Source: Aquilaria yunnanensis (Eukaryota > Streptophyta > Magnoliopsida > Malvales > Thymelaeaceae). Taken from it: DNA of 64,000 nucleotides. The translations under genes were made by a program, and so were the position numbers. The stretch covers positions 32,373,992-32,437,991 of the forward strand of contig CM077600.1 of the NCBI GenBank assembly GCA_039654915.1. The letters run 5' to 3'. Positions 2,471 to 64,000 of this stretch are shown here, piece after piece (within the stretch, counting starts at the first letter, position 1; every line of letters starts with the position of its first letter). Below the pieces are notes generated by a model. That model was not told where the DNA came from. It saw nothing but the letters and a program-made list of their open reading frames with translations, and made no database searches.

Positions 2471-2952
2471 ATGAAAAATGGTTAAAAAAAAATAGAATTT
2501 GAAATCATGGGATTATTATGCATCTTTAAAAAAATATCAAGACCTTTGAAATTTTTTACCAAAAAAGGATTTGATTTCTACCATTAACACTTTAGTCCTG
2601 TTGCCGTCTCCATCACCAATGCCCCAATCCTATCGTCGCCCCCCTCTATCTCTACTGTTTAATCGTTGTGGCAACGTGCGGATCGTTTTCGGGAGTCGCC
2701 ACCAATCAGTTTTCTTAGGTCGATTGGTCACCTTAAAATTGGTTTGCGAGAGTTCGGGGATCGGGAGTACGGTTACGTTAAAACAACTTTGTTAAAACGC
2801 CCAAAAATTGGCACCTTAGTTGATTTTAATTTTTGTTTTGCTTTGCTTTTAAATAATTCTCAGTTAATTTTCAAAATTAGAAATTTTAACTGGATTAGTC
2901 GAAATGTGGATTTTTAAATTAATTAATTTGTATGAAATTTTATACTTCCGAA

Positions 2953-4420: not shown

Positions 4421-5914
4421 ATTTTTAATTTTTTTTTTTAAATTTAATTATTTAATTAATTATTAATTTTAATTATAATTTTATTGAATTTTTCTTGAAT
4501 TTTTAATTATTATTACTTTAAAGATATATTTAAAAAACAGAATTGATTTGTATTTTTGGAATTATTTAATTATTTCTATTTATTAATTTAAAAAAAGGAA
4601 TAAAAAGTCAACTTTGTTATTTTTAAAGAAATAATAAAATAAAAAAAATAAAAATAATTGGCTTTTAAAAATGATTTTTTTATTAGCCTTAATAATTAAT
4701 TACAAAATAACCTTCTTTTAATTTTCATTTATTTATTTATTAGTAAAGGGTAAAGGTGAATTAAATAAAATAAAGTGGGGCTTTTTGGCCATCCATTTTA
4801 AAAATAAATAATAATAAAGGTTAGCAAAGTTGATTAAAGTAATTAACAACAATAATAGAAATTAGCCAAGTTTAATTAATTGTTAACAATAATAATAAAA
4901 AGTTAGTCAAGTTAATTAATTAACAATAATAATAAAAGGTTAGCCAAGTTAATTAATTAATAACAATAATAAAAAGTTAGCCAAGTTAATTAAATTAATT
5001 AATTAATAACAATAATAAAAAGTTAGCCAAGTTAATTAAATTAATTAATTAACAACAATAATAAAAAAAAATTAGTCAAGTTAATTAAATTAATTAATTA
5101 TCAACAATAATAAAAAGTTAGTCAAGTTAATTAATTAATTAACAACAATAATAAAAAGTTAGTCAAGTTAATTAAATTAATTAATTAACAACAATAATAA
5201 AAAGTTAGTCAAGTTAATTAAATTAATTAATTAATTAACAACAATAATAAAAAGTTAGCCAAGTTAATTAAATTAATTAATTAATAACAATAATAAAAAG
5301 TTAGCCAAGTTAATTAAATTAATTAATTAATAACAATAATAAAAAGTTAGCCAAGTTAATTAAATTAATTAATTAACAACAATAATAAAAAGTTAGTCAA
5401 GTTAATTAATTAATTAACAACAATAATAAAAAGTTAGTCAAGTTAATTAAATTAATTAATTAACAACAATAATAAAAGTTAATTAATTGTTAACAACAAT
5501 TATAAAAGTTAGTAATAATGCAAAAATTAAAAGGTTAGTAACAATAATAATATTAAAAGTTAGTTGTTAGTAAGTTAATAACAACAATAAAAAGAAGATT
5601 AGTAATAATAACAATAATTAACAAATAAATAAACAAGTAAAAATTAAAAAGGTTAGTAATTTATTCTGCAGGAACAAAAATAAAAGGTTAGTGACCAAAT
5701 TGAAAGAAATTGAAAAGATGAAGTATGGAATCAAGGTTTCACCTTTCAAAACAAGTTTTTGAATCTGAAGAACAGAGACGCGAAGGCGCGCGCGAAGGGG
5801 GAGGGAGGCAGGGGCAGTTGGCGGCGCGGCGGGGCGGCGAGGCGGCGAGGCGGCGCGGCGGCGAGGGCGGCGAGGCGGAGGGACGGCGGCGGCGGCGGGC
5901 AGCGAGGGGCACGG

Positions 5915-5956
<42 letters not shown>

Positions 5957-6634
5957 ACAGCAGTGAAAAAAGAAAAAAATTTGGCTTTCTGGGGAAGAAG
6001 GGAAGAGGGCTGGGGCTAAGGGCTGTAATTTTCTCTTTTTTTTAAGACGGAGCTCTAAGTTTTTTTGCTATTTTTTTCTGTGTTCAGCACAAAATTTGGG
6101 GGGTTATTTATAGAGGAAGTTTAGCTGAACTGTTGATGGATAAATTAATAAAAAATTTCAAACTTATCTCTTAAATTGGTAAAATGACAGTTTTAGTCCT
6201 TTACGTCTCTCAGCCTCTGGATAAGTTCCTGAAGCTTCTGATTTTGACAATTTTGTCATTTTCTGTCAATTTGAGCCAAAAACGTCGGCAGCTCAAAATT
6301 TTATGTGACAAACTGCCAAATGCTCCTGGAACTTTCAGAATTTGTCAATTTTGCCTGAAACTTCTTAATTTTGTCATTTTTACCTCAAACTTTTAAATTT
6401 TGTCATTTTTATGGAGTTTTCTCTTTTTTTTCTTTCAAACATACACATATACACACATATATCAAATCTTCACAAAACAAAACAAAAAAATATATATATA
6501 TATTTTAAACTAATTAAAAAAAATTTAGTACTAATAATAACAATAATAATAATAATACATTTTTTTATTTAATTTTTTTATTTAATTTTTTTTTTTAAAT
6601 TATTTTAATAGCCGGACGAAATTAGGTATTAACA

Positions 6635-6647
6635 GCTGCCCCCCTTT
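6635..6647 (-). other. polypurine tract next to the 3' LTR
   Basis: On the coding strand the bases just before the left LTR read AAAGGGGGGCAGC, then TGTTAATACC begins. A G-rich tract at this place primes plus-strand DNA synthesis in Ty3-type elements. It sits inside a larger inverted repeat: the LTR end at 6611-6633 is nearly complementary to 6676-6701, and 6645-6680 is itself a hairpin. Confidence 0.8.
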
Positions 6648-6740
6648 GCATGCTTCATGGGACATGATGTATGCAAAGTTAGTTACCAAATTTCGTCCAG
6701 CTTAGCTAGGCATTGAAAACCTTCTCGCCGCCTAAACTCT

Positions 6741-9700
6741 GAGGTTTAAGGAAAGGTCCTTAGAACCTCTAACGATAGGAAAGGTTCTATCGTTGTAAGA
6801 TGGACTGAATGACTGATTGTTTGTTTGAGGTTTAAGGAAAGGTCCTTAGAACCTCTAACGATAGGAAAGGTTCTATCGTTGTAAGATGGACTGAATGACT
6901 GATTGTTTGTTTGAGGTTTAAGGAAAGGTCCTTAGAACCTCTAACGATAGGAAAGGTTCTATCGTTGTAAGATGGACTGAATGATTGATTGTTTGTTTGA
7001 GGTTTAAGGAAAGGTCCTTAGAACCTCTAACGATAGGAAAGGTTCTATCGTTGTAAGATGGACTGAATGATTGATTGTTTGTTTGAGGTTTAAGGAAAGG
7101 TCCTTAGAACCTCTAACGATAGGAAAGGTTCTATCGTTGTAAGATGGACTGAATGATTGATTGTTTTTTTGAGATTTAAGGAAAGGTCCTTAGAACCTCT
7201 AACGATAGGAAAGGTTCTATCGTTGTAAGATGGACTGAATGATTGATTGTTTTTTTTTTAGGTTTAAGGAAAGGTCCTTAGAACCTCTAACGATAGGAAA
7301 GGTTCTATCGTTGTAAGATGGACTGAATGATTGATTGTTTGTTTGAGGTTTAAGGAAAGGTCCTTAGAACCTCTAACGATAGGAAAGGTTCTATCGTTGT
7401 AAGATGGACTGAATGATTGATTGTTTGTTTGAGGTTAAGGAAAGGTCCTTAGAACCTCTAACGATAGGAAAGGTTCTATCGTTGTAAGATGGACTGAATG
7501 ATTGATTGTTTGTTTAAGGTTTAAGGAAAGGTCCTTAGAACCTCTAACGATAGGAAAGGTTCTATCGTTGTAAGATGGACTGAATGATTGATTGTTTGTT
7601 TGAGGTTTAAGGAAAGGTCCTTAGAACCTCTAACGATAGGAAAGGTTCTATCGTTGTAAGATGGACTGAATGATTGATTGTTTGTTTGAGGTTTAAGGAA
7701 AGGTCCTTAGAACCTCTAACGACAGGAAAGGTTCTATCGTTGTAAGATGGACTGAATGATTGATTGTTTTTTTTAGGTTTAAGGAAAGGTCCTTAGAACC
7801 TCTAACGATAGGAAAGGTTCTATCGTTGTAAGATGGACTGAATGATTGATTGTTTTTTTGAGGTTTAAGGAAAGGTCCTTAGAACCTCTAACGATAGGAA
7901 AGGTTCTATCGTTGTAAGATGGACTGAATGATTGATTGTTTTTTTGAGGTTTAAGGAAAGGTCCTTAGAACCTCTAACGATAGGAAAGGTTCTATCGTTG
8001 TAAGATGGACTGAATGATTGATTGTTTGTTTGAGGTTAAGGAAAGGTCCTTAGAACCTCTAACGATAGGAAAGGTTCTATCGTTGTCAGATGGACTGAAT
8101 GATTGATTGTTTTTTTGAGGTTTAAGGAAAGGTCCTTAGAACCTCTAACGATAGGAAAGGTTCTATCGTTGTAAGATGGACTGAATGATTGATTGTTTGT
8201 TTGAGGTTAAGGAAAGGTCCTTAGAACCTCTAACGATAGGAAAGGTTCTATCGTTGTAAGATGGACTGAATGATTGATTGTTTGTTTGAGGTTTAAGGAA
8301 AGGTCCTTAGAACCTCTAACGATAGGAAATGTTCTATCGTTGTAAGATGGACTGAATGATTGATGGTTTGTTTGAGATTTAAGAAAAGGTCCTTAGAACC
8401 TCTAACGATAGGAAAGGTTCTATCGTCGTAAGATGGACTGAATGATTGATTGTTTGTTTGAGGTTAAGGAAAGGTCCTTAGAACCTCTAACGATAGGAAA
8501 TGTTTTATCGTTGTAAGATGGACTGAATGATTGCTTGTTTGTTTGAGGTTTAAGGAAAGGTCCTTAGAACCTCTAACGATAGGAAAGGTTCTATCGTTGT
8601 AAGATGGACTGAATGATTGATTGTTTGTTTGAGGTTTAAGGAAAGGTCCTTAGAACCTCTAACGATAGGAAAGGTTCTATCGTTGTAAGATGGACTGAAT
8701 GATTGATTGTTTGTTTGAGGTTTAAGGAAAGGTCCTTAGAACCTCTAACGATAGGAAAGGTTCTATCGTTGTGAGATGGACTGAATGATTGATTGTTTGT
8801 TTGAGGTTTAAGAAAAGGTCCTTAGAACCTCTAACGATAGGAAAGGTTCTATCGTTGTAAGATGGACTGAATGATTGATTGTTTGTTTGAGGTTAAGGAA
8901 AGGTCCTTAGAACCTCTAACGATAGGAAAGGTTCTATCGTTGTAAGATGGACTGAATGATTGATTGTTTGTTTGAGGTTTAAGGAAAGGTCCTTAGAACC
9001 TCTAACGATAGGAAAGGTTCTATCGTTGTAAGATGGACTGAATGATTGATTGTTTGTTTGAGGTTTAAGGAAAGGTCCTTAGAACCTCTAACGATAGGAA
9101 AGGTTCTATCGTTGTAAGATGGACTGAATGATTGATTGTTTGTTTGAGGTTTAAGGAAAGGTCCTTAGAACCTCTAACGATAGGAAAGGTTCTATCGTTG
9201 TAAGATGGACTGAATGATTGATTGTTTTTTTGAGGTTTAAGGAAAGGTCCTTAGAACCTCTAACGATAGGAAAGGTTCTATCGTTGTAAGATGGACTGAA
9301 TGATTGATTGTTTGTTTGAGGTTTAAGGAAAGGTCCTTAGAACCTCTAACGATAGGAAAGGTTCTATCGTTGTAAGATGGACTGAATGATTGATTGTTTG
9401 TTTGAGGTTTAAGGAAAGGTCCTTAGAACCTCTAACGATAGGAAAGGTTCTATCGTTGTAAGATGGACTGAATGATTGATGGTTTGTTTGAGGTTTAAGA
9501 AAAGGTCCTTAGAACCTCTAACGATAGGAAAGGTTCTATCGTTGTAAGATGGACTGAATGATTGATTGTTTGTTTGAGGTTAAGGAAATGTCCTTAGAAC
9601 CTCTAACGATAGGAAAGGTTCTATCGTCGTAAGATGGACTGAATGATTGATTGTTTGTTTGAGGTTTAAGGAAAGGTCCTTAGAACCTCTAACGATAAGA

Positions 9701-9818
9701 AAGGTTCTATCGTTGTAAGATGGACTGAACGATTGATTGTTTGTTTGAGGTTAAGGAAAGGTCCTTAGAACCTCTAACGATAGGAAAGGTTCTATCGTTG
9801 TAAGATGGACTGAATGAT
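6741..9818 (-). repeat. tandem array of about 36 units of 86 bp, each able to form two hairpins
   Basis: The unit runs from GAGGTTTAAGG to TTGATTGTTTGTTT and is repeated almost without change for about 3.1 kb. Unit lengths are 85-88 bases, mainly from T-run changes. Within each unit, GAGGTT and TAAGGA pair with TCCTTA and AACCTC around an AAGG loop with one bulged G. Separately, AACGATAG pairs with CTATCGTT around an 8-base loop. Lying between the last frame and the polypurine tract, it would form the 3' untranslated region of a full-length element transcript. There is no coding potential. Confidence 0.95.
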
Positions 9819-10636
9819 CTCGAGGCAAAGGTTCTATCCTTAAAACCCCGGATTGATTAATTGATGTCGAGGCAAAGGTTCCATCCTTCAAACCTCGACG
9901 ATTGATTGAGTTCGAGGCAAAGGTTCCATCCTTAAAACCTCGGATTGATAATTGATTGTTTTCGAGGCAAAGGTTCCATCCTTAAAACCTCGGATTGATA
10001 ATTGATCTCGAGGCAAAGGTTCCATCCTTAAAACCTCAGATTGATTGATTGATCTCGAGGCAAAGGTTCTATCCTTAAAACCCCGGATTGATTAAAATTG
10101 GTTGTTTTCGAGGCAAAGGTTCCATCCTTAAAACCTCGGATTGATTGATTGTTTTCGAGGCAAAGGTTCCATCCTTTAAACCCCGGATTGATTGATTGAT
10201 CTCGAGGCAAAGGTTCCATCCTTAAAACCTCGAATTGATGAAAATTGGTTGTTTTCGAGGCAAAGGTTCCATCCTTAAAACCTCGGATTGATTGATTGTT
10301 TTCGAGGCAAAGGTTCCATCCTTAAAACCCCGATGATGAAAATTGATTGTTTTCGAGGCAAAGGTTCCATCCTTAAAACCCCGATGATGAAAATTGATTA
10401 TTTTCGAGGCAAAGGTTCCATCCTTAAAACCCCGATGATGAAAATTGATTATTTTCGAGGCATAGGTTCCATCCTTAAAACCCCGATAATGAAAATTGAT
10501 TATTTTCGAAGCAAAGGTTCCATCCTTAAAACCCCGATGATGAAAATTGATTATTTTTTAGGCAAAGGTTCCATCCTTAAAACCCCGATGATGAAAATTG
10601 ATTTTGAGGCTAAGGAGCTTTCCTTAGGACCTCGAG
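9819..10636 (-). repeat. second tandem array, about 16 units of 41-54 bp with a hairpin core
   Basis: The units share CGAGGCAAAGGTTCCATCC, then TTAAAACCTCGG and a spacer of ATTGATT type. CGAGG pairs with CCTCG, and AAGG with CCTT inside it. Spacer length varies at the left; the right-hand units settle to 51 bp and so give a 17-residue repeat in an open frame at 10288-10650 (+), which I regard as accidental. The last unit, near 10606, is diverged. The hairpin plan (AAGG beside the loop) resembles that of the 86-bp array, so the two arrays may be related. Confidence 0.9.
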
Positions 10637-11183
10637 CGAAATTTATATAAAAGCAATTGAAATTGGAATAATTTTCTTCGAAAGTGTGAATTTTCATAAT
10701 TGGCGAGCGCAAAGAATTAGGCTTCGATAAAACGAGTGAATCTTGATGATGACAATAACACTGACAAATTATGTAAATGGAGTGGATGTTTGGAATCAAT
10801 ATTCAAGGTTCATCTAATATTTTCTTCAGTAAATATAGATTCCCTTGTGAGATATGTCATCCGAATAAGGTTAAAGCTTAACTACCCCAAAATGTTATGC
10901 CTAGTAGACCTAATAGGATGCGTCTCAAGAGTAATAAAAATTACTCTTTACTCAGCCATTCCAACCTAAAGGCATTGTCGCATGGTTTTAATATCAGCAT
11001 GGACGAAACTATCTTATAAAAAGAAATTCCCTGAAAAGAAAAACTGAAACGCGAAAGAAAATGCTGATAATAAAACTAAAGGACAAGAAAAACGGATCAG
11101 ATCGCTTCTTTCTTCCACAATACTTCAACAGGGTGAGTAGAGGACCATTATGGGAGTGAACTGGTCGGGAAAGACTGTCGTGT
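10637..11183. other. element spacer between LOG-like gene and satellite arrays
   Basis: AT-rich sequence with short open frames only. On the coding strand it is downstream of the LOG-like stop codon. I see no family match and no repeat. Confidence 0.4.
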
Positions 11184-11777
11184 CTAGTCTATCTGAATCA
11201 TTGCTGGATCTGGTTCAGGAACAAAAGCTTGTATTTTATCTAGCAATTCTTCAGCAGTTGTTGCGGATATTATGATTCGCCGTGCCACTCTTGATATGAA
11301 ATTCTTCTGCATAGCGTAATCCATAAAAGCTATCAGACCTGTAAAGAAATTGTTAACATTCAAAAGCCCAATGGGTTTCTTATGCAAATTAAGTTGGGCC
11401 ATGGAATCAATTTGAAAGACTTCTCCCAATGTGCCAAAACCACCTGGTAGAGCGATAAAAGCATCAGCATTTAAAAGCATTTGTAACACACGCTCTTGCA
11501 AATTTTTAACCACTAATTCTTCTCCAATCGTGCCCCCAGAAATAAATTTCAGAGGTCCAGGGATAATACCCAGAACTTGACTTCCTCCTAGAGATGCTGC
11601 TGATGCTATACCTCCCATTAATCCGACACTACCTCCTCCATAAACTAAATGTATTTTTCGCTCAGCTAATACTCTTCCCAAATGGTTGGCTGCTTTTAAA
11701 TACTCTTCATCTTTTCCAGGAAAAGCCCCAGAAAATACACAAATACTTCGGGATTTACGAGTTGGGGTTTTCTCCAT
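11184..11777 (-). CDS. LOG-like cytokinin riboside 5'-monophosphate phosphoribohydrolase carried by the retrotransposon
   Basis: LOG enzymes remove ribose 5-phosphate from cytokinin nucleotides and so release active cytokinin in one step in the cytosol. This 197-aa frame shows the family order: RSICVFSGAFPGK near the start, YGGGSVGLMG, LGIIPG, then FIALPGGFGTLGE, which keeps the PGGxGTxxE signature and its last Glu. The catalytic Arg before the signature is kept (L-Q-E-R-V), but the Lys that normally follows it is Val. The C-terminal part (KKPIGLLNV...ISATTAEELL) is also typical. I chose Met 11777 because family similarity starts there; an in-frame Met at 11864 would add 29 hydrophobic residues. 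Plant LOG genes have several introns and this one has none, so capture through mRNA is likely. The frame is intact. Activity is uncertain because of the changed residue. Confidence 0.88.
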   Translation of the reverse strand: MEKTPTRKSRSICVFSGAFPGKDEEYLKAANHLGRVLAERKIHLVYGGGSVGLMGGIASAASLGGSQVLGIIPGPLKFISGGTIGEELVVKNLQERVLQMLLNADAFIALPGGFGTLGEVFQIDSMAQLNLHKKPIGLLNVNNFFTGLIAFMDYAMQKNFISRVARRIIISATTAEELLDKIQAFVPEPDPAMIQID

Positions 11778-11806
11778 TCCTATCCTTACCCTTGTGAGAA
11801 AAGAGG

Positions 11807-11818
11807 ATATAGTTATAG
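11807..11818 (-). promoter_or_regulatory. TATA-like sequence before the LOG-like gene
   Basis: CTATAACTATAT on the minus strand lies 30-41 bases upstream of the chosen ATG. It is a weak TATA candidate. If used, the transcript would start close to the 11777 ATG and exclude the hydrophobic extension. Confidence 0.3.
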
Positions 11819-11874
11819 AGATGAAGAGATAAGGCAATAATTTTATTTTCAAGAATGGATACATTATTGCCAGC

Positions 11875-12245
11875 TATTCACAGTAGTCACGAGTATGACT
11901 TTGGTCAGGTATGGGTACACTATCGTTAAAAGAGGAGGAAAATTTTCAAAATAGCTGCTAGCATGTACAGTAGTCACTACTGTAGCTTACGTCAGGAGTA
12001 GGTACGTGATTGTTGGAAGAGAAGGAAAATTTTAAAAAGTGGCAGCTATATACAATAATCATAACTGTATCTCATGTCAGGAGTGGGTACATTATTGGGA
12101 GGATAATTTCAAAAGCGACAGCTAGCATGTACAGTAATCGTGACTTTGGTTCACGTTAGGAGTGAATACATTATTACCAAAAGGGGAGGAAAATTTCAAA
12201 AGCAACAGCTAGCACGTACAGTAATCGTGACTTTGATCCTCGTCT
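11875..12245 (-). repeat. about 5 units of an 80-95-bp spacer repeat
   Basis: The units share GCTAGCATGTACAGTAATCGTGACT-like text and a GTACATTATT...GGAAAATTTCAAAAG part. The same unit occurs once after the stop codon of the frames ending at 13049 and 13887, so this looks like amplification of the 3' flank of the 182-aa frames. One unit holds a perfect palindrome, TACAGTAGTCACTACTGTA (about 11965). Confidence 0.75.
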
Positions 12246-12283
12246 TCCAATGGCTTTGCGTCCAGTAATGGCTTTAATGCTTT

Positions 12284-12832
12284 CTATGAATCGGTGATTT
12301 GCATCTCATCTAGCTTTCTCACAAACTGGCAAACAGGGTCGTTTAGAGTCAGATTCTCAAGACTGTAACAATCTCGTTCTTTTTGGAAAATTATCCATAA
12401 TCCAACAACCTCAAATTGCACTATTCCGCAAGAATGCGCTTCAAGAACCTCTCGAATATCTTCTAGAGATTCCTTACGCAAGCCATTCTTAATGAATCTT
12501 ATTCTATCATTACGATTTCTGGTGATCACTCCTGGAGAACGACATTTATTGCCGCAAATCCACCATCCACAATTATGACAAACGCCTAGCCTCTTTGCTC
12601 TTCTTTTTTTGGCATAAGCACTTTTACCAAAGCCGGGCATACGGGGAAAGAACGCTTCTGGAACTTCACCAGCTGAACGAACCTTAGCTTCAATTAGCCA
12701 CCGCACATTATCAGGAATGCCTTTGTGCATAAATACTCTGAATCGTTCACATCTAGCTTGATAAATCTTTTTAAGAACATTTATTGGGAAGGAAGGAAAA
12801 TACTTTCGTAGGGCGGAAAGAGAAGACTCCAT
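12284..12832 (-). CDS. 182-aa basic cysteine-motif protein, tandem copy 3
   Basis: Third and last of three related frames. The start is set at 12832 because it gives the same 182-aa length and the same opening (M-x-S/P-x-x-x-ALRKYFPS) as the other two; the open frame extends 5 codons further. In order: an N-terminal part with LRKYFPSFP and KKIYQARCER, a basic stretch near residues 70-82 (GKSAYAKKRRAKRL), cysteines spaced C-x2-C-x4-C-x3-C near 85-97, then FIKNGLRKESLEDI and a C-terminal NDPVCQFVRKLD. The lysine/arginine block followed by cysteines suggests nucleic-acid binding with a metal site. The layout recalls carlavirus cysteine-rich nucleic-acid-binding proteins; that link is tentative. 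No signal peptide or membrane segment is seen. Confidence 0.75.
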   Translation of the reverse strand: MESSLSALRKYFPSFPINVLKKIYQARCERFRVFMHKGIPDNVRWLIEAKVRSAGEVPEAFFPRMPGFGKSAYAKKRRAKRLGVCHNCGWWICGNKCRSPGVITRNRNDRIRFIKNGLRKESLEDIREVLEAHSCGIVQFEVVGLWIIFQKERDCYSLENLTLNDPVCQFVRKLDEMQITDS

Positions 12833-12890
12833 TGATGAAGGAGGCAAAGAAAGAAATTAGTGATTGTAGGAAACGAAAATAACTAACACA

Positions 12891-12899
12891 TATTTATAG
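12891..12899 (-). promoter_or_regulatory. TATA box of tandem copy 3
   Basis: CTATAAATA on the minus strand, within CATCACTATAAAT, a phrase shared with the box of copy 2. It lies 59 bases before the ATG. Confidence 0.5.
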
Positions 12900-13048
12900 T
12901 GATGAAAGGGATAATGCGTTAATTACACTTACAGAAGCAAGTACATTATTGTCAAAAGAAAAGACAAATGACAGCTTATATGTACAGGAATCATGACCGT
13001 GGCTCTCATCTTCCACTGATTTATGTCCAGTAATGGCTTCAATGCCTT

Positions 13049-13597
13049 CTATAAGTCGGGGATTTGCTTCCCATCCAGTTTCCTTACAAACTGACAAACA
13101 GGGTCGTTTAAAATCACATTCCCAAGACTGTAACGGTTTCGTTCTTTATGGTAAGTCCTCCATAAACTGATAATTTCACCTTGCACTTTTCCACAAGAAT
13201 GCGTTTCAAGAGTCTCTCGGATATCTTCCAGAGATTCCTTACGCAGGCCATTCTTAATGAATTTTCTTTTATCTTCACGATTTATGGAGATGTATCCTAA
13301 AGAGCGACATTTAGTAATACAATTCCATCGCCCACATTTATAACACACGCCTAGTCTCTTTGCTCTTTGCCTTTTGGCATAACGGCTTTTACCTAAACCG
13401 GGCATGCGGGGCATAAATGCATCTGGAACTTCACCCGCCAAACGGACCTTAGCTTCAATTATCCACTGCACATTATCGGGAATGCCTTTGCGTGTAAAAA
13501 CTCTGATTCTTTCACATCTAGCCAGGTAGATCTTTTTAAGGACTTTTATTGGAAGGGAAGGAAAGTATTTTCGCAGTGCAGAAAGAGTAGAATCCAT
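13049..13597 (-). CDS. 182-aa basic cysteine-motif protein, tandem copy 2
   Basis: Middle copy, intact. It is about 70% identical by eye to copy 1 over the first 60 residues. Basic stretch at residues 70-82 (KSRYAKRQRAKRL); Cys 85, 88, 93 and 97; FIKNGLRKESLEDIRE near 113-128. The three frames have kept the same length, the same cysteine spacing and open frames while diverging in sequence, which suggests protein-level selection at some time. Its own TATA box lies at 13718-13725. I cannot name the family with confidence. Confidence 0.78.
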   Translation of the reverse strand: MDSTLSALRKYFPSLPIKVLKKIYLARCERIRVFTRKGIPDNVQWIIEAKVRLAGEVPDAFMPRMPGLGKSRYAKRQRAKRLGVCYKCGRWNCITKCRSLGYISINREDKRKFIKNGLRKESLEDIRETLETHSCGKVQGEIISLWRTYHKERNRYSLGNVILNDPVCQFVRKLDGKQIPDL

Positions 13598-13717
13598 TGA
13601 TGAGAGAAGAATTTGAGAGAAGAGGGAAATGAATCAGTTATTGTAGGAGACTGGAATAACTGAATTTAGAAGTCACGGGGTATCTTATCCGCTGCTTAAT
13701 CAGAAGGAAGAACACGC

Positions 13718-13725
13718 ATTTATAG
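13718..13725 (-). promoter_or_regulatory. TATA box of tandem copy 2
   Basis: CTATAAAT on the minus strand in the phrase CATCACTATAAAT, 121 bases before the ATG. The shared flanks with copy 3 show that the promoter was part of the duplicated unit. Confidence 0.5.
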
Positions 13726-13886
13726 TGATGAAAAGGGATAACGTGTCGATTACACTTAGGGGAGCGTGTACATCTGTCAAAAGAAAATGCAAACTTTTCC
13801 AAATATAACAAACTGTATGTACAGTAATTGTGACTGTGGCTCACATCTTCCACTGGTTTTTCGTCCAGTAACGGCATTAACGGCTT

Positions 13887-14435
13887 CTATGAGTCGAGGA
13901 TTTGCTTCCCATCCAGTTTTCTTACAAGCTGGCAAACAGGGTCATTTACAGTCAGATTCCCGGGACTGTAACGGTTTCGTTCTTCATGAAAAATGCTCCA
14001 CAAACCAAGTAGTTCACGTTGCACAGATCCACAAGAATGCGTCTCAAGAGTCAATTGGATATCATCCAACGAGTCTTTACTCAGGTCATTCTTAATGAAT
14101 CGTATTTTATCTTCTCGATTATCAGAGATCATCCCTAAAGAACGACATTTAGTATTACAAGTCCACCGTCCACATTTATGGCAGACTTGTAACCTTTTCG
14201 CTCTTCGCTTTTTGGCATAAGAGCTTTTGCCTATACCAGGCATGTGAGACACAAATGCCTCTGGGATTTCACCTGCTAGACGAACCTTGGCTTCGATTAA
14301 CCACCGCACATCTTCAGGGATTCCTTTGTGCATCAGAACTCTTAATCGTTCACAGCGAACTTGGTAGATCTTTTTGAGGATGTTCATTGGGAGAGAAGGG
14401 AAATACTTTCGCAAGGCGAAAAAAGTAGGATCCAT
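13887..14435 (-). CDS. 182-aa basic cysteine-motif protein, tandem copy 1
   Basis: First copy in the direction of transcription, intact. Opening MDPTFFALRKYFPSLP; basic stretch KSSYAKKRRAKRL; CHKCGRWTCNTKC gives the same C-x2-C-x4-C-x3-C pattern as its sisters. A TATA box is at 14561-14570, and upstream of it lie 140-bp repeats. It stands 838 bases before copy 2, so frame plus spacer was duplicated as one unit. An alternative is a domesticated host gene family, but none that I know fits. Confidence 0.78.
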   Translation of the reverse strand: MDPTFFALRKYFPSLPMNILKKIYQVRCERLRVLMHKGIPEDVRWLIEAKVRLAGEIPEAFVSHMPGIGKSSYAKKRRAKRLQVCHKCGRWTCNTKCRSLGMISDNREDKIRFIKNDLSKDSLDDIQLTLETHSCGSVQRELLGLWSIFHEERNRYSPGNLTVNDPVCQLVRKLDGKQILDS

Positions 14436-14560
14436 TTTCTAGGAGGAAGTAAAAGAAAGAAGGGGTGAAGGAATCAGTTATTATGGGCAATTGAGAGAAC
14501 CGACTTGAGAGTCACGGAGTACCGTATCTGCCGTTTAACCGGAAAAGTAGATCCTACTTC

Positions 14561-14570
14561 ATTTTTATAG
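14561..14570 (-). promoter_or_regulatory. TATA box of tandem copy 1
   Basis: CTATAAAAAT on the minus strand, 126 bases before the ATG, nearly the same distance as in copy 2. Confidence 0.5.
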
Positions 14571-14600
14571 ATATTTTTTTTTTATCCGTTGATCCAGTCC

Positions 14601-14940
14601 TCGATTATTGAATCCATTGTCCGCTTTTGACAAAGTTTCAACGACAATATTTCTTGATGTCTGCCTTATCTTTGACCACAGCTATCTCTTATCTTGGATG
14701 CTGCTAAGCTGGCATCAATCCTGTCCTTCCAGGTGTAGCCTCGATTATTGAATCAATTGCCAAGCTTTTGACAATATTGTCTACTTTATCCTTTTTGATA
14801 TCTGCCTTATCCTTGGCTATAGCTATCTCTTATTTTGGATACTACTAGCTGATGTCAATCCTGTCCTTCCAGGTGTAGTCTCGATTATTGAATCAATTGC
14901 CAGGCTTTTGACATATTGTCTACCTTATCCTTGAATTCCT
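14601..14940 (-). repeat. 2.4 units of a 140-bp tandem repeat
   Basis: TCGATTATTGAATC recurs at 14601, 14741 and 14881, and CTGTCCTTCCAGGTGTAG closes each full unit. It lies just upstream (coding strand) of the first 182-aa frame, where it could act as a repeated upstream element. That role is inference. Confidence 0.8.
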
Positions 14941-17825
14941 GATGCGGGTTGGTCCCGCATATTAGCTGTGTATCCAGTGATAGATTGGTAAGAGCTGATA
15001 TTATTGAGATCTCAGCTTATACTGCTGTAACGGTGCGGTGGATGTGTTTCCCATTTGATTCCTATCGTGTAAAAATCATGCATGCATGATGTGAAATGCA
15101 TGAATGCAAAGCATGTGTAATTGATGGTTCTTTTTATTTTTATTTTTTATTTTTATTTATATTTATTTTTTTATTTTTTATTTTTTTTGGATTGATCTAG
15201 TTCTTCATATCTTTGCTTTACTGGATCCTCTTTATAATTGCCTTCTTGGACTATCATTGAATCTCTTTATGCTTTCCAGCTTTTGTTCACTGCCTCAAAA
15301 GCCCAACTCTTTTCAAAATCCCCTTTCTTTGACTTGTTCTTGAATTTTGGCCTCAATTTCTTTAAAGTTGGCCCGCCTCATAATTTATATCTCTTTCGGG
15401 TACTCATCCATTGTCATAGATTTGATACCATCAAAGGCTTTACTTTCAATGTCTGCTTTGCCCATTTTCTTCTGGCCGTGCCGACACTTGTTTACCCCCA
15501 TGTTACAGTCCGAATGATTGCTCTTCCTTAGACTCAGGTTCTGATCCATAAGACTTGCCCTCTTGTCTATTGAGCTTCTTTCTTGGCTGTACTTTTCTTG
15601 CGCTTAGTAGAGACTACTTTTGCCCCCTTGATTATGGTGTTTATGTGGAAAGAAATATCATCTCGCCTTTGATTTAATAGAAGGTTGAGGATTTTTAGAC
15701 CTTTGTGATGGCACTTGATCGTAAATTTCTCTTACAAGAACCACATCTTATTAAAGAAAGACTCAAGCTATCTCCTTACTTTTAAGTCTACATACATTAA
15801 TGAATAATGGTTTGGCCTTAAAGAAAAACTTTCATCAATTTTCAAAGCTTGACAAAGTAATTTACGGTCTTTGTTTTCAATTAAAATGTCCTGCCATTCT
15901 TCCCTTTCCAACTCGAAGACATAAACTGTACAAGGCAATAAGGTAGAAACATGATTCACAATAATAGCCTTTTAACTGAATGAGGATGATATCGAGAGGT
16001 AAATGTTAGGTGTGAGGAAAGTTAAGTTTGAATGTTTTTTTTTTTTTGTGGCAGTCTTTTAGCTGAATGAGAATGATATTAAGAGGTAAATATTAGGTCT
16101 GAATAAAGTTAAGTTTGAGTGGTGTGAAAGAAGGGTCTTTTAATACTACTCGTGAGCAAATTTGATTATGGTGAAAAACTCAATAGTGATGACCTCAAAC
16201 TTGCCACTCTTTCCAGAAAGTTAGACCTCATCTGTTGCCCCCCAACTATTGTGATCTTTATGCATGCTTGGTTTGAGGGTTGCTTTTGTGTTCTAAACCA
16301 CCTTTGCAGGTTTTCAGTCTAGAATCCATAGCTCACTTTTTTTCTTTCTTTTTTTTTTTTTTTTCTAGTTTGAGCCCTTTTTCCTCTTTTTTTTTTTTTT
16401 TTTTTTGTTTTTTTGTGTGAGCTATGGTGATAACATACTTGATAACTCTCTTGAAGTGAGATGACTCAAGTGGCCTTGCTTGCTCGTGCTTGTTCTCAGT
16501 TCTTTTTGGTTTTGAATTTTCCCTTGTTGGCTTTTTGGTGGAAGGGATGAACTTTTTCCTTTTCGGAGTTTTTGTTACAGAGAACCGAGATCATAGCCTT
16601 CTTGAAATGAGATGATTCAAGTGGCCTTACTTGCTTGTGTTTGCTCTCAGTCTCGCTTTTTTTGGTTTTGAATTTTCCCTTGTTGGCTTTTTGATGGAAG
16701 AGATGAACTTTTTCCTTTTTTTTTTTGGAGTTTGTGTTATGGAGAACCGAGATCATAGCCTTCTTGAAGTAAGATGACTCAAGTGGCTTTATTTGCTTCT
16801 CAGTCTCTTTTTTTTTTTTTGGATTTTTTTTTTCTTGTTTGGATTTTCTCTTTAATGGCTTTTGATGGAAGGGAGGAACTTCTTTCCTTTGTTGGAATTT
16901 GTGTTGTGGAAAACTGAGAATTTTTTTTTTGTATTGAGCATTTGTGAGAATTGGGAGGCCACTGAAGTCATTTAATATGAGAGCTAACTTCTTTGGAAGT
17001 TAATCCCGGACTCCTTGCAAGGATGTTGATAACCACTGTGAATTCTTTTTTAGGGTTGAGGTGCAACATATGAAATCCTTCTTACTAGATTTGGCAGCAC
17101 TTTCAAGATCATTACTATCAAATTTTCCTTAACTTTTTATTTTCACCCACGAGTAGTATCATTTAGAAAGCAAAGTATGATAGCAATAATGGATAGTATA
17201 ATGGAAAGGAGTGAGAGATGGATGTAAAAACAGAATTTTTGGTAAGAAGTGATAGAATGTGTAGGTGTAATAATTGAATTTTTGGTAAAAATTGGTACAA
17301 TATGTAGATGTAATAATGGAATTAAAAAGTGGTATAATGTACACGTAACATCTTTTTGTTAGAGAACAAAAAGAATTACCAGTTGTCAAAAAGTAAAGTG
17401 TGATGGCAATAATAGATAGTATAATGGCAAAGAGTGTAAAAATGGAAAGTAGTAGAATGCACGCATTACATCTTTTTGTTGTACCAGAAAGAATACCAGG
17501 TGTCCATCTAACAAAGACTACACCCTAGATTCTGGACTAAATCTAGGAGATTTTTACTATTAGATTACTTTTGCAAGCTTTCAAATATACAAGTTTATTC
17601 AAAGGATTCCCTGTCATTCGAAAATGTATGCGGACTGTTAGGTCAGATCTGACTTGGAGCCCTTCCAAAATCAATGTAATTCCAGCTCAAAATCTTCACT
17701 TTCAATTATCAATCACATCATGGCCTAGCAACTTAGACTCGACCAACTGTTGGACCTTGAGTTTCAGCACCACAGACTTTTCAGTTACATTTGGGATTTG
17801 GGTCACACCAACTTGGAAGAGAAGG
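14941..17825. other. element internal region without a recognisable gene; three 150-160-bp repeats at 16448-16925
   Basis: In autonomous Tat/Ogre elements reverse transcriptase, RNase H and integrase would follow the protease here. I see no motif of any of them and no long frame on the coding strand. 16448-16925 holds about three units marked by CTTGAAGTGAGATGACTCAAG and CCTTGTTGGCTTTTT. Near 17160-17440 a second small duplication (AAAGTATGATAGCAATAATGG and a variant) occurs. Long T runs lie at 15120-15190 and 16320-16410. Confidence 0.6.
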
Positions 17826-20024
17826 TCACTTGGCCTTTGCTACTATTGATATAGATGATAGCAGAATGCCTTCTTCAGCAAAGACTGTGATTAACTTTCC
17901 TTCAAAAATGAATTTCATTTTTTGGTGTAATGAGGAGGGAATTGCTCCGGCCATATGAATCCATGGTCTTCCCAACAGACAAGTATAAGAAGGATTAATG
18001 TCCATAACTTGGAATGTGATATGAAAGACACAAGGGCCGATCTCTATTGGCAGCTCTATTTTTCCGACGACATTTCTATTCGTCCCGTCAAATGCTTGAA
18101 TAGTGATATGACTGTAGTTGAGGTATGATGAGTCTATACCAAACTTGTGTAAGGTCTCAATTGGCATTATGTTTAGAGCTGACCCATTATCAACAATAAC
18201 TCTAGTCATAGTTCGATCTTTGTATTTAACCGAAATATATAGAGCCTTAGAGTGACCCCTTCCTTCTGCTGGTATCTCATCGTCAGTGAATGTGATGAGA
18301 TTCTGTGCGGTGATGTTGTTGACGAGGTGGTCAAAATTATTCACTGAAATATCTGGCTCAACATAGGCCTTATTCAAGACTTTGAGGAGGGTTTCTCGAT
18401 GAGCATCAGAGCTTATGAGTAGTGAAAGTATGGAGATCTTTGTTGGCAGGTGGTTTAACTGCTCCACGGCACTGTACTCACTTTGCTTCATGAGTTTAAG
18501 GAACTCAGTAGTTTGTTCATCTGTCACCTCTTGAGACATCTTTTGCTCTTTAGATGTATCTGTATCTAGAGGCTCACTTGTTGGGTCTGTGACGTTCTTA
18601 TCTTGTCGAAGCTTGTACATTTGTTCTGGAGAGTAACATGGACCACTTCTAGTCATACTCCTAACTTCTAACGGAGTTGATGTGATGTTGGAAGTGTAAT
18701 CATGGCTCCATGGAACAGCCTTGTCTGATTTGTAGAGGAATGACCTCGGGACTCGAGTTCTTAAAGGCTTGACAATAGATTTTGAAATTGGTATAACTAG
18801 TGGTTTTGGCGTAGCATTGACTTCCCGTTTTTTAGTGATCACATTTACATCATCATCTTTATCCGACGTAGAAATGATGAGTTGGGATGAGTCCATGAGC
18901 CTTTGTAGACTTTCACGGAATTCTGAGCATTCTTGGATAGAATGACTTTTACTGTCATGAAAGTCACACCAGTCCTCATCTTTGACTTCTTCATGTTTAA
19001 AAGAAGACTTCCGGATGATAACCCCTTCTTTTAGAAGGCATGAATATACATGCTTAAGAGGGGTTATGATATCGTTGACTGACTTCTTTATCGGCTGGTG
19101 TTCTTCTATCATATTGACTGGTTTTGCTTGATGAGGCGGCAATGGATTGTGAGTGACGTTTGGTTCATCGGAAAAGTCCAACCACTTTGACTCGATTAAT
19201 TGTTGAACTATACGCTTCAATGCCATGCAGTTTTCCAAGCCATGGCCTGGAACGCCATCATGATATGGGCAGGTAATGTTAGGGTCATACCACCTTGGAT
19301 ATGGGGGTTTGAATGGCTTTGTAGGAATTGGACGGATAAATTGTCTTTCGATGAGTTTTGGGTATAACTCAGTATAAGTCATGGAAATTGGTGTGAAAAC
19401 TTCTCTTGGTCTTGGTGCAGGTACTGGAGGAGTAGGAGCAGGTGGCCATGACTGATTAGTTCTGTTAAAAGGATAATTGTTGGGCCTATTGGAAGGATAA
19501 TCATTGGGCCTATTTGGAGGATAATTATTGGGCCTATTCAGAGGATAATCATTGGGCCTATTTAGAGGATAATCATTGGACCTATTTGGAAGGTAATTAT
19601 CGGGCCCATTGGCAAAATAGGATAGGCGAGGTCCGATAGCCACCGTATCCACGAGGGGAATCCTTCTTCCGCGTCCTATTTGTTGTACTTCGTCATCTTT
19701 TCTTCTGGATGGTCCTCCTCTTTTTATAGGATTATTAAAGGATTCAGCAATATTCCCAGTCCTAATCTCATGCTCGATTCTTTCTCCAGACATGACAATG
19801 TTAGAAAAATTAGTTGCCGAATTGCCAATGAGTTCGTCATAATATAGGTACTTCAATGTCTGGACAAACAAAGTGACCATTTCTCTTTCTGTCATGGGTG
19901 GCTGAACTTGTGCTTCTTGAATTGCTTTCGCCTTGATTAGCTCGATTAATTGTCTCATTTGTTCGGCCATACTTTCTATCTTGGACTCTATCTTTATGAG
20001 ACGTCCTTCGATTTGTTCTGCCAT
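17826..20024 (-). CDS. retrotransposon gag-protease polyprotein with gag core deleted
   Basis: 732 aa, open throughout. Residues 1-35 form a charged, probably coiled-coil start. From about 37 the text (EAQVQPPMTEREMVTLFV) is the late part of a Tat/Ogre-type gag, so the usual capsid-like middle region is missing. Residues about 143-190 are tandem NRPNDYPL-type repeats. Two Cys/His segments follow: C-P-Y-H...G-H-G-L-E-N-C near 252-266 and W-C-D-F-H...H-S-I-Q-E-C near 352-366. The protease lies near 608-700, with active site V-D-N-G-S-A at 611-616 and the LLGRPWIH flap-side motif near 683. It would package RNA and cleave gag, but with the capsid region gone it probably relies on gag from a full-length relative. 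Confidence 0.9.
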   Translation of the reverse strand: MAEQIEGRLIKIESKIESMAEQMRQLIELIKAKAIQEAQVQPPMTEREMVTLFVQTLKYLYYDELIGNSATNFSNIVMSGERIEHEIRTGNIAESFNNPIKRGGPSRRKDDEVQQIGRGRRIPLVDTVAIGPRLSYFANGPDNYLPNRSNDYPLNRPNDYPLNRPNNYPPNRPNDYPSNRPNNYPFNRTNQSWPPAPTPPVPAPRPREVFTPISMTYTELYPKLIERQFIRPIPTKPFKPPYPRWYDPNITCPYHDGVPGHGLENCMALKRIVQQLIESKWLDFSDEPNVTHNPLPPHQAKPVNMIEEHQPIKKSVNDIITPLKHVYSCLLKEGVIIRKSSFKHEEVKDEDWCDFHDSKSHSIQECSEFRESLQRLMDSSQLIISTSDKDDDVNVITKKREVNATPKPLVIPISKSIVKPLRTRVPRSFLYKSDKAVPWSHDYTSNITSTPLEVRSMTRSGPCYSPEQMYKLRQDKNVTDPTSEPLDTDTSKEQKMSQEVTDEQTTEFLKLMKQSEYSAVEQLNHLPTKISILSLLISSDAHRETLLKVLNKAYVEPDISVNNFDHLVNNITAQNLITFTDDEIPAEGRGHSKALYISVKYKDRTMTRVIVDNGSALNIMPIETLHKFGIDSSYLNYSHITIQAFDGTNRNVVGKIELPIEIGPCVFHITFQVMDINPSYTCLLGRPWIHMAGAIPSSLHQKMKFIFEGKLITVFAEEGILLSSISIVAKAK

Positions 20025-20099
20025 TAATCTTATTTGGAGCCGAATTGAATATCGGTGTCGAGGTCCAATTTTATCCTTTTAAAAGTAAGGTATATTTTA

Positions 20100-20390
20100 T
20101 TAGATCCTATGTGTATGTGATTGATGCAATGGATGCATGTAGGAAAAATGAGATTATGTTTTTATCAGACTTTGTATACACGTGATTGATGTAATGGATG
20201 TATGCAACGAGATTATGTTTTTATCAGACTTTATATGCACGTGATTAATGTAATGGATGTATGCAATGAGATTATGTTTTTATCAGATTTTATATGCGTG
20301 TGATTGATGTAATGAAATGCATGCAATGAGATTATTTTTATCAGACTTTATATGCACGTGATTAATGTAATGGAATGCATGCAATGAGTG
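20100..20390 (-). repeat. about 5 units of a 59-60-bp tandem repeat in the element leader
   Basis: Units contain GAGATTATGTTTTTATCAGA and GTGATTGATGTAATGGATG. They stand directly upstream of the gag-protease ATG, in the untranslated leader. Confidence 0.85.
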
Positions 20391-21116
20391 AGTTTGCTTA
20401 TCCAATATCATGGAACTTCAAGACTTTTAGTTGTTATTAAAAAGACCAAAAAGTTAGCATAGTTTGATGCGTGGTTTTGATGCATGAAGAATATTTGCAC
20501 AAAACAGAAGTATAACAAAAGAAAGATAAGTTTATTAATAACTTAAATAGCAATTAACAACTCATGAACTATTATGGAAAAATGAGTTAAAACCATAAAT
20601 ACGAAAATAAAAGTGTAGAGCAACAACACAGCATAACAAGGATATGCTTATGGCGTTGGTAAATGGGAGGAATACTATGGTTAGTTCTATGGTTAAGTGG
20701 GGAGTTCTATATGCATAAGGTGGCTTATCAAAAAGGCAAGGGATAGTTCCCGAATCCCGTCACTAAATTATAGTGACGGCCCGATTCCTTACCCTCTAGG
20801 GTTAATGTAAGGAATGGATTAATTCGAGTCGTAGCTTTTCGTGGGCCCATGCAGAGACTAACCGTCTCAGAAGGCAATACACTACTTTGCTACTTTGAAA
20901 CCGGTGAAGGCTTGGAGACCATGGCCTCACAAGGACAACAACACCAATTCCGCTTAGAAAGAATCGTGTTCGATTTAAGTAAGCTCGGGTATAGAGCTTC
21001 ATATTGTGAATCCATAATGCATGTTTTCGCTAAGTAAATATAGCATATAAAAATCCACATAATAAGCAAAGTAAATTAAAACAAATCAACTTTAGGCTCG
21101 ACTCACTAACGTCGAG
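20391..21116. other. element leader, no gene
   Basis: Between the primer site and the gag leader repeats. Only short open frames occur (for example 20802-21002), with no recognisable family. Such leaders normally carry dimerisation and packaging signals, which I cannot locate by eye. Confidence 0.4.
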
Positions 21117-21134
21117 TCCCCAGTGGAGTCGCCA
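21117..21134 (-). other. primer binding site for tRNA-Arg
   Basis: The plus strand reads TCCCCAGTGGAGTCGCCA, which fits the 3' end of a plant tRNA-Arg including CCA; the coding strand is therefore complementary to the tRNA. It starts 3 bases from the end of the 5' LTR. A tRNA-Arg primer is typical of Ogre-type elements. The tRNA assignment is from memory. Confidence 0.8.
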
Positions 21135-21137
21135 AGC

Positions 21138-24100: not shown

Positions 24101-24385
24101 TAAACAAGTAAAAATTAAAAAGGTTAGTAATTTATTCTGCAGGAACAAAAATAAAAGGTTAGTGACCAAATTGAAAGAAATTGAAAAGATGAAGTATGGA
24201 ATCAAGGTTTCACCTTTCAAAACAAGTTTTTGAATCTGAAGAACAGAGACGCGAAGGCGCGCGCGAAGGGGGAGGGAGGCAGGGGCAGTTGGCGGCGCGG
24301 CGGGGCGGCGAGGCGGCGAGGCGGCGCGGCGGCGAGGGCGGCGAGGCGGAGGGACGGCGGCGGCGGCGGGCAGCGAGGGGCACGG

Positions 24386-24427
<42 letters not shown>

Positions 24428-25106: not shown

Positions 25107-25254
25107 ATCGTCAAGCTAGCATTTTTGAGAAAGAAAGAGTTTAATTACAAAAAAATTTTAAAATTTGTTAAAACTTATATTATCACCTTAAAATTTTTAA
25201 ACTTATTATTTTTAACATTTTTCATTGGCTTTTTTAATGCTTTCGTTAGATTTT

Positions 25255-35406: not shown

Positions 35407-35490
35407 GGCCAGAGTTCCAACTTCCTGGAGTAAAACCAAATATTCAGTTAACACAACATATTAAGCAAGTTTGTGAACGAGTGATTCGAT

Positions 35491-63671: not shown

Positions 63672-64000
63672 GTCCGTTGGTGCTTTGGATATATTTCTTT
63701 TGGTTTTCCATGAAGTTCCATGAGTAGTTGCTATCGTTTTTTCATAGAATCTCATTAGTTCCAGTTTTGTTTCTTTGTGACCTCGTTTTGCTTGTGTGTA
63801 AATGTTGATATATATGGTGTCTGTTTGCATGAACTATATTGACTGTCTAATTTCAAAGCCCAGGGCAGTAAATGTTGCTGTCGTTCTTTCAAAGAATCTT
63901 ATGTTTTGTAGACTTAGTATGTTTTGTGTTGGGGTGATCTGCTTTGCTTGCCTGTAAATGTTGATATATATGCCTGCATTATTGGGCAAACCAATTTAAA

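Follow-up and report, generated by a model that had tools for sequence, protein, structure and literature searches.

We consider it probable that a 22.4-kb LTR element of Aquilaria yunnanensis belongs, as a recent copy without pol, to a Tat-lineage (Ogre-like) family whose 3′ cargo, three tandem genes encoding small basic zinc-finger proteins (CRP) and one LOG gene, all in the sense direction, is an inherited module that is kept by selection and would act on the host. The DNA analysed (the window) is a stretch of 64,000 nt from assembly GCA_039654915.1 (CM077600.1, positions 32,373,992–32,437,991, forward strand), and the genome searched for further copies was the window's own (842 Mb).

Structure of the element

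The features are listed by position in the window.

2662..2666, no strand: left target-site duplication ATCGT, read directly
2667..25106, minus: whole LTR element, 22.4 kb, from the LTR pair and 5-bp target duplication
2667..6634, minus: 3′ LTR, 3,968 bp, pairs with the 5′ LTR
6635..6647, minus: polypurine-tract-like run directly before the 3′ LTR, read directly
6740..10650, no strand: tandem arrays, an 86-bp unit about 36 times at 6740–9818, then 47- and 51-bp units
11184..11777, minus: LOG-type gene (phosphoribohydrolase-like), a single continuous frame of 198 aa (TIGR00730, E 2.3e-43)
12284..12832, minus: CRP3, 182 aa (PF05515, E 4.9e-6; PF01623, E 1.2e-4)
13049..13597, minus: CRP2, 182 aa (PF05515, E 1.4e-6; PF01623, E 1.6e-4)
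13887..14435, minus: CRP1, 182 aa, basic stretch and CX2CX4CX3C finger (PF05515, E 2e-6; PF01623, E 6e-6)
14436..17825, minus: spacer without recognizable coding sequence (three minus frames scanned, none matching Pfam)
17826..20024, minus: gag-protease frame, 732 aa (aspartic protease match; BLASTP against P0241)
21116..21134, minus: primer-binding site TGGCGACTCCACTGGGGAC, read directly
21138..25106, minus: 5′ LTR, 3,969 bp, TG...CA ends, 99.87% identical to the 3′ LTR
25107..25111, no strand: right target-site duplication ATCGT, read directly

The element has the paired LTRs, target-site duplication, primer-binding site and polypurine tract that define an LTR retrotransposon, and in relative L083 an LTR end is followed by the identical 19 bases. 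The two LTRs differ by four mismatches and one gap (2667–6634 vs 21138–25106), and the copy is young. An earlier note on this DNA had called the element both young and intact. Its youth is borne out by the LTR identity and the 5-bp duplication; intactness holds for the ends and fails for the interior, where pol is absent and gag is partly missing.

The aspartic protease match in the gag-protease frame (E 2.5e-4, 22.1 bits) lies below the Pfam cut-off of 24.3. BLASTP aligned this frame mainly with residues 241–300 and 334–880 of P0241, a protein of 1,025 aa that bears PF03732, and the N-terminal, capsid-bearing portion found little counterpart; we infer that the capsid part of the window gag is largely missing. 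A Pfam scan of the minus-strand frames of 14436–17825 and 6635–11183 revealed no reverse transcriptase (RT), RNase H or integrase. Both ends of the spacer align with relative L080, in which a G-patch, RT, two RNase H domains and an integrase lie in between. The window copy does not encode the full set of an autonomous element (gag, protease, RT, RNase H and integrase) and would depend in trans on pol-bearing relatives.

The CRP and LOG proteins and their predicted roles

As the earlier note had described, three 182-aa paralogues lie in a row, open, on the element's coding strand. CRP3 has an alternative frame that is five codons longer (start TTG 12847), with which its Pfam E values were obtained. 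CRP1, CRP2 and CRP3 all exceed the curated cut-offs of PF01623 and PF05515, and these viral families are matched in 107 and 105 of 123 CRP family members. The viral match is carried by a 56-residue finger piece; residues 1–71 alone give no match. The CX2CX4CX3C spacing is found in the window CRP and in 101 of the 120 best homologues. In a separate count, 13 of 120 homologues were left out because they are shorter than 160 aa. dN/dS among the three window paralogues is 0.12–0.34. When neutral change of 0.3 substitutions per site was simulated in a simple way, a frame of this kind stayed open in 0.5% of 2,000 trials; the frames are thus open beyond chance. The paralogues had also been credited with their own TATA boxes. 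TATA-like motifs do lie 66–134 nt upstream of all three window starts and recur in relatives at CRP2 and CRP3 (four of four upstream stretches, from L080 and L084); at CRP1 they are absent from all three stretches, those of L080, L081 and L084. The background is 12% of random 150-nt element stretches and 17% of shuffled upstream sequences.

The window proteins share with the CRPs of flexiviruses (carla-, viti- and allexiviruses) a four-cysteine finger preceded by a basic stretch, and differ from them in the unmatched residues 1–71. A viral fold search with the CRP model, itself of low confidence (pLDDT 69.6), gave no match reaching E 0.001; 14 of the first 16 rows were named (E 0.1–3.5), and we take all 14 to be alpha- or betaflexivirus proteins. 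The CRP of Potato virus H suppresses local RNA silencing according to the available text of PMC3689765; it is a 10.87-kDa protein with CX2CX9CX4C spacing, in contrast to CX2CX4CX3C and 182 aa in the window. Chrysanthemum virus B p12 is described in the same text as unable to suppress silencing locally, and in the part of PMC12172455 available as a weak suppressor.

Some members of the viral families matched by the CRP finger suppress silencing, which lends some weight to the earlier suggestion of a role in silencing. We suggest that CRP would bind nucleic acid and act in the nucleus, where it would most likely blunt RNA silencing or reset transcription of the element. A different role, which we rate as rather unlikely, is that of a trans-acting nucleocapsid or RNA chaperone that aids packaging or reverse transcription of the long element RNA, its viral likeness being convergent. 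The confinement of the viral match to the finger side, a cysteine spacing that differs from that of Potato virus H and the naming of the matched Pfam families for nucleic-acid binding all agree with such a protein. However, the curated cut-offs are exceeded in all three paralogues and the named top fold matches, none significant alone, presumably all belong to flexiviruses, which goes beyond a generic finger.

The LOG gene is intronless and open on the element's coding strand, again as the earlier note had stated. Its frame was listed as 11184–11864 (226 aa), but homologues point to the internal Met at 11777 as the start, and thus to a protein of 198 aa; the window protein stops 11 residues short of the 209-aa frame in most sister copies. 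Matches in Pfam, NCBIfam and the PDB support the LOG identity: the protein lies above the cut-offs of the family profiles TIGR00730 and PF03641, and the best PDB match is 2a33 (At2g37210, E 1.7e-50), with 1ydh (At5g11950, E 3.8e-47) also found. Homology to these plant LOG-type proteins extends across ~180 residues; the window gene differs from theirs in being uninterrupted, in having many near-identical copies and in lying within an LTR element. PGGxGTxxE, which we take to be the LOG signature, starts at residue 111 (numbering of the 198-aa form), and 108 of 120 homologues retain it. We propose that LOG would turn cytokinin nucleotides into active cytokinin in element-expressing cells, favouring division and meristem fate so that new copies reach the germ line.

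LOG may instead have been retained for a non-hormone role, such as binding or regulation. The strict equivalog model NF058542 (CtkRMPhLog) is missed by a wide margin (97 bits; cut-off 300), and an LxLxL pattern lies within the last 25 residues of 99 of the 120 homologues, mostly after a basic stretch, although the LOG of the window family has no such tail. The tail presumably resembles the EAR-type tail of transcriptional repressors. Conservation of PGGxGTxxE in the homologues and in the window argues against this role, which we think improbable.

The claim of the earlier note that the cargo could alter hormone level, and perhaps silencing, is therefore backed on the side of family membership, by the LOG profile and PDB matches and the viral match of the CRP finger, whereas both activities are predictions. 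Between them, we place more confidence in nucleic-acid binding or anti-silencing by CRP than in cytokinin activation by LOG. More tentatively, the cargo could be a two-part host-manipulation module, in which a virus-type silencing suppressor or transcription factor (CRP, in three copies) and a cytokinin-activating enzyme would lift silencing and drive division during transposition, in the manner of some plant pathogens. The benefit of the module to the element is our inference, as it was that of the earlier note.

Pol-bearing relatives, genomic copies and selection

In L080 the G-patch is followed by RVT_1 (398–556), RT_RNaseH (646–750), RVT_3 (815–925) and rve (1091–1188); L081, of which one frame was scanned, has the same domains without the G-patch. 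Both thus have a second RNase H between RNase H and integrase, as in the Tat clade. By this domain order in the relatives, the family is assigned to the Tat lineage and tentatively called Ogre-like. The window copy has LTR end, primer-binding site, leader, gag start and cargo in common with L080/L082/L083. CRP1, CRP2, CRP3 and LOG follow the integrase in L080/L082; this order is seen in four of five integrase-bearing relatives (the fifth has CRP1 only within the stretch examined), and all three loci drawn from the integrase list irrespective of CRP have the four genes behind the integrase. Because the block recurs in many copies and lies behind the integrase in relatives, we read the window element as a pol-less relative of a Tat family with a 3′ accessory module, which would be inherited along with the element, pol-bearing members included. 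The earlier note spoke of gene capture; capture by a single element does not fit a module found family-wide.

The earlier note had allowed that the frames might be broken in all other copies, that dN/dS might be near 1 or that the block might occur in this insertion only; none of the three was borne out. The block is present in many insertions of the same genome. The best 150 scored matches to CRP1 are all 98–100% identical and 149 have no internal stop; of the best 150 to P0008, 69–73% identical to it, 139 are stop-free, as are 149 of the best 150 to the LOG homologue P0132. Since these lists hold the best-scoring places, openness is favoured by choice; at least one place is common to the CRP1 and P0008 lists. 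At loci picked with CRP1, stop-free copies number 24 of 28 for CRP2 and 27 of 29 for CRP3 (from 34 loci per gene, of which ungapped, full-length copies of ≥95% identity were retained, the window copy included). One copy was doubled (L031/L004), and L031 was omitted for CRP1 and CRP2, L004 for CRP3. LOG, at 25 loci, is open at 209 aa in 17, broken in five, not found in two and cut by the stretch end in one.

Among copies, pN/pS is 0.38 for CRP2 (bootstrap 0.19–0.97; 28 copies), 0.21 for CRP3 (0.10–0.43; 29 copies) and 0.22 for LOG (0.12–0.43; 19 of the 25 loci plus the window). All are below 1, although the CRP2 interval almost reaches it. The CRP1 value of 0.04 is biased, since the copies were selected by CRP1 itself. 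Against the relative L080/L082, pN/pS is 0.26–0.32 for LOG, 0.23–0.34 for CRP1 and 0.34–0.50 for CRP3. Purifying selection thus appears to act on the module proteins, as judged from these substitution patterns.

Constraint of this kind could also reflect fast recent amplification of a few intact masters, with LOG and CRP captured once and hitch-hiking as passengers. The copies are very similar (pS 0.02–0.04) and, owing to recent common ancestry, not independent, and the five broken LOG loci point the same way. We nevertheless regard this as distinctly unlikely given the low dN/dS among the paralogues and the low values against the more distant relative, the identical finger spacing in most of the best CRP homologues and the apparent LOG–CRP linkage elsewhere. 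Among records of at least 2 kb, three CRP and LOG pairs have the same source and length (0.05 expected), which suggests linkage elsewhere; at any size there are seven same-length pairs (1.2 expected), some of which must be chance because they are too short for both genes. Finally, we dismiss the reading that an LTR element landed next to, or came to enclose, an ordinary cluster of host genes. LOG genes do form an ordinary family in plants, with PDB matches to Arabidopsis proteins, but the identical gene order occurs on many contigs and behind the integrase in four of the five relatives.

Relation to known elements

Tat elements have long been known to carry extra ORFs, few of which have a plausible activity; Steinbauerova et al. 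2011 reportedly described Tat/Ogre LTR retrotransposons with such ORFs. The most prominent extra-ORF domains named in the available text of Neumann et al. 2019 (PMC6317226) are the plant mobile domain, Transposase_28 and Athila ORF-1. The window family resembles these Tat/Ogre elements in the second RNase H (L080/L081), long LTRs, tandem arrays and extra ORFs 3′ of pol, and differs in that its extra ORFs encode CRP and LOG. Retand elements, as far as the available part of PMC11963269 describes them, likewise have a long region between pol and 3′ LTR, extra ORFs, tandem arrays and some non-autonomous members. However, their extra ORFs with known domains, chiefly TRP28, are antisense, whereas those of the window element are sense; the three plus frames of 10650–17825 gave no Pfam match, and TRP28 was not found there.

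LOG domains in plant Gypsy elements are already published: PMC9289625 places a YgdH/LOG domain inside Gypsy elements of Citrus and Populus trichocarpa, as in the window, and its available text mentions neither a CRP-type domain alongside nor a selection test. The multi-gene cargo that was unfamiliar to the author of the earlier note is therefore known in its LOG part, while the literature searched yielded no such report for the CRP.

If either activity were confirmed, plant retrotransposons would act on host physiology through enzymes of their own. A young, abundant family keeps four selected genes that probably act on hormone level and on nucleic acids, both of which are directly assayable. 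Element-type CRPs occur in sequence data of several eudicots, and the finding therefore touches on the origin of flexivirus CRPs.

The window element and its missing parts

Three 182-aa frames (CRP1-3) and a LOG-type frame were found on the minus strand at the coordinates where the earlier note had placed a multi-gene cargo:

2667-25106, minus (coding) strand: LTR element, identified by its LTR pair, flanking ATCGT, PBS and polypurine tract
17826-20024, minus strand: gag-pro frame, on the same strand as CRP1-3 and LOG
13887-14435, minus strand: CRP1
13049-13597, minus strand: CRP2
12284-12832, minus strand: CRP3; the frame listing includes an alternative TTG start, 5 codons longer
11184-11777, minus strand: LOG frame, its start better placed at the internal Met at 11777

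The cargo is therefore sense-oriented with respect to gag-pro. Since its homologues begin at Met 11777, we count the LOG protein as 198 aa long. The element had been called intact, and this holds for its ends: the LTRs, 3,968 and 3,969 bp long, align with 4 mismatches and 1 gap, the target duplication ATCGT lies at either end, and PBS and polypurine tract are present. At plant substitution rates of 0.7-1.3e-8 per site and year, the LTR divergence would put the insertion some tens of thousands of years ago. The remainder is incomplete, however. RT, RNase H and integrase were not found on the coding strand of 14436-17825 and 6635-11183, and gag is partial, its alignment with the Vicia villosa homologue P0241 (which carries gag domain PF03732) starting only at P0241 residue 241. 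Gag frames of ~1,000-1,100 aa exist in the same genome. The spacer between gag-pro and CRP1 (14436-17825) matches L080, a stretch of a pol-bearing relative, at its two ends alone; pol is thus absent from the window element, with other sequence in its place.

Directly before the 3' LTR, 6740-10650 holds ~36 copies of an 86-bp unit and then 47- and 51-bp units; the relative (stretch L082) is likewise repeat-bearing there, with a likeness to the window repeats of only ~64%. Degenerate ~100-bp repeats (family D18, 11847-12201) separate CRP3 from LOG.

Pol-bearing relatives and lineage

Five integrase-bearing loci were read. In L080 one frame (stops read as X) contains G-patch, RT, RNase H, a second RNase H and integrase, and beyond integrase come CRP1 (92% identical to the window), CRP2 (93%, broken frame) and CRP3 (90%). 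The adjoining downstream stretch, L082, adds tandem repeats and a LOG frame (95% identical) that is open over 209 aa; on the upstream side L083 supplies an LTR end (188 bp, 88%), an identical PBS, the leader (92%) and the gag start (91%). L081 has RT, both RNase H domains, integrase and CRP1, and no other CRP match within the 2 kb examined. L084, L085 and L086 were drawn from the integrase list regardless of CRP and read from integrase onward; all three carry CRP1, CRP2, CRP3 and LOG downstream in constant order, with all four frames open in L084 and L085 and CRP1 broken in L086. The sense 3' module is kept open in both pol-bearing and pol-less copies.

The integrase search returned 137 scored places (136 stop-free), and because 99 of the 137 lie within an open frame of the same length, 1,144 aa, the pol-bearing family looks recently active. 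For at least 12 of the 137 places, by comparison of lists by eye, a match to the LOG homologue P0132 follows ~5-6 kb downstream and has the strand in common. PMC6317226 describes an additional RNase H, placed between the first one and integrase, as the mark of Ogre and Retand. Retand elements also carry an antisense TRP28, according to a passage of PMC11963269; unlike these, the window element yielded no TRP28 in 10650-17825. Assigned by domain order and the TRP28 result, not by tree, the family belongs to the Tat lineage and is probably Ogre.

Copies and selection

The Aquilaria yunnanensis genome (842 Mb, 345 contigs) was searched with CRP1 and with two homologues. All 150 scored CRP1 matches were 98-100% identical, 149 without internal stop; P0008, a CRP homologue from another source whose list overlaps that of CRP1 in at least one place, gave 139 stop-free matches of 150, and P0132 gave 149 of 150. 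These are best-scoring places only, so the open-frame share of all copies is not deducible from them, and the first-look counts (8,269 for CRP1, 3,605 for P0132) are a loose hint of family size, nothing more. Thirty-five loci around CRP1 (two being one copy) were read, neighbouring genes not being a selection criterion. CRP2 was missing, shortened or chimeric in five (L003, L006, L011, L020, L032), which makes the array variable; differing CRP number and make-up between copies is what unequal recombination within it would give. The same CRP2 defects were seen at L063, L067, L070 and L071. LOG, followed at 25 loci, was a 209-aa frame at 17, broken at five, without match at two and in an incomplete stretch at one; the window LOG stops 11 residues short of the 209-aa frames.

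Among copies, pN/pS was 0.38 for CRP2 (bootstrap 0.19-0.97; 28 of 34 loci tried), 0.21 for CRP3 (0.10-0.43; 29 of 34 loci, 143 codons) and 0.22 for LOG (0.12-0.43; 19 of 25 loci plus the window), ratios that are less independent than the intervals imply because copies share ancestry. The CRP1 ratio was 0.04, but CRP1 was the bait for choosing loci. Among the window's CRP1-3, dN/dS was 0.12-0.34 (three methods), and between the window and L080/L082 the ratios were 0.26-0.32 (LOG), 0.23-0.34 (CRP1) and 0.34-0.50 (CRP3).

Protein likenesses, possible function and other plants

CRP1-3 consist of a basic stretch followed by CX2CX4CX3C and match Viral_NABP (PF05515) and Carla_C4 (PF01623) above cut-offs; at E 0.001, 107 and 105 of 123 aligned CRP members, respectively, match these models. 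A 56-residue finger-containing piece suffices for the viral Pfam match, and residues 1-71 by themselves gave none, for CRP1 and for the homologue P0002. The fold model has low confidence, and a fold search against viral proteins returned 26 rows, none at E 0.001. Among the first 16, 14 are named, several bearing the label 'RNA silencing suppressor'; we take all 14 to be alpha- or betaflexivirus proteins. The finger segment is thus flexivirus-like, through either descent or convergence.

LOG exceeds the curated cut-offs of TIGR00730 (E 2.3e-43) and PF03641 (E 9.8e-30), contains PGGxGTxxE and has Arabidopsis At2g37210 as best PDB match (E 1.7e-50); the strict equivalog NF058542 was not reached (97 vs cut-off 300). 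Of the 120 top-scoring LOG homologues (P0121-P0240), 99 have LxLxL within the last 25 residues, mostly at the extreme C-terminus behind a basic stretch (e.g. KKRKLDLTLRL), resembling an EAR-type repressor tail. LOG of the window's family lacks it.

A TATA motif, found in 12% of random stretches, lies upstream of CRP2 and CRP3 in 6/6 cases (window and two relatives) and of CRP1 in 1/4; the former would permit internal promoters for CRP2 and CRP3. In the passages concerned, silencing suppression is attributed to the CRPs of Potato virus H (PMC3689765) and sweet potato chlorotic fleck virus (PMC12172455), and Chrysanthemum virus B p12 is termed a weak suppressor and hyperplasia-inducing transcription factor (PMC12172455) and said to have failed to suppress local silencing (PMC3689765). 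Taken together with LOG, these activities suggest that CRP and LOG may form a module easing silencing and favouring dividing cells. We lean modestly towards the overall explanation, a Tat-lineage element with a CRP-LOG module and these functions taken as one reading; our confidence is slightly lowered because the viral CRP results are mixed and NF058542 was not reached.

Tat elements with extra ORFs are known; here the cargo is unusual and testable. LOGL4-like ORFs in two Athila-like elements were reportedly described by Steinbauerova in 2011. For Gypsy elements of Citrus and P. trichocarpa, LOG (YgdH) domains have already been published (PMC9289625, in a passage that cites Steinbauerova 2011). 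No report of a CRP inside a retrotransposon was found in an open-access library with few subscription journals.

CRP homologues numbered 261, the best 120 including names from Populus, Xanthoceras and Orobanche, and many of the 120 listed LOG homologues come from Reevesia, Paulownia and Populus, where one genome often contributes several; the protein search behind both carries no genomic context. Three CRP-LOG record pairs of at least 2 kb share a source and an equally long longest contig (8723, 4511 and 2128 bp) vs 0.05 expected (400 shifted comparisons), equal length being no proof of one shared contig. With the size limit dropped there are 7 pairs vs 1.2 expected, some too short for both genes. 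A tree built from 110 CRPs places CRP1-3 of the window together with P0001 and P0006 in a single well-supported group, so the gene was triplicated recently compared with the family's spread.

Elsewhere in the window, a 393-aa frame (34273-35454, minus strand) resembles by eye an NBS-type resistance gene, and two frames at 40747-42066 (plus strand) likewise resemble by eye fragments of a hAT-type transposase. Two similar tandem frame sets (53620-55025 and 61841-63713, plus strand) look by eye like the exons of a duplicated gene that encodes an outer-membrane protein of SAM50/Omp85 type.
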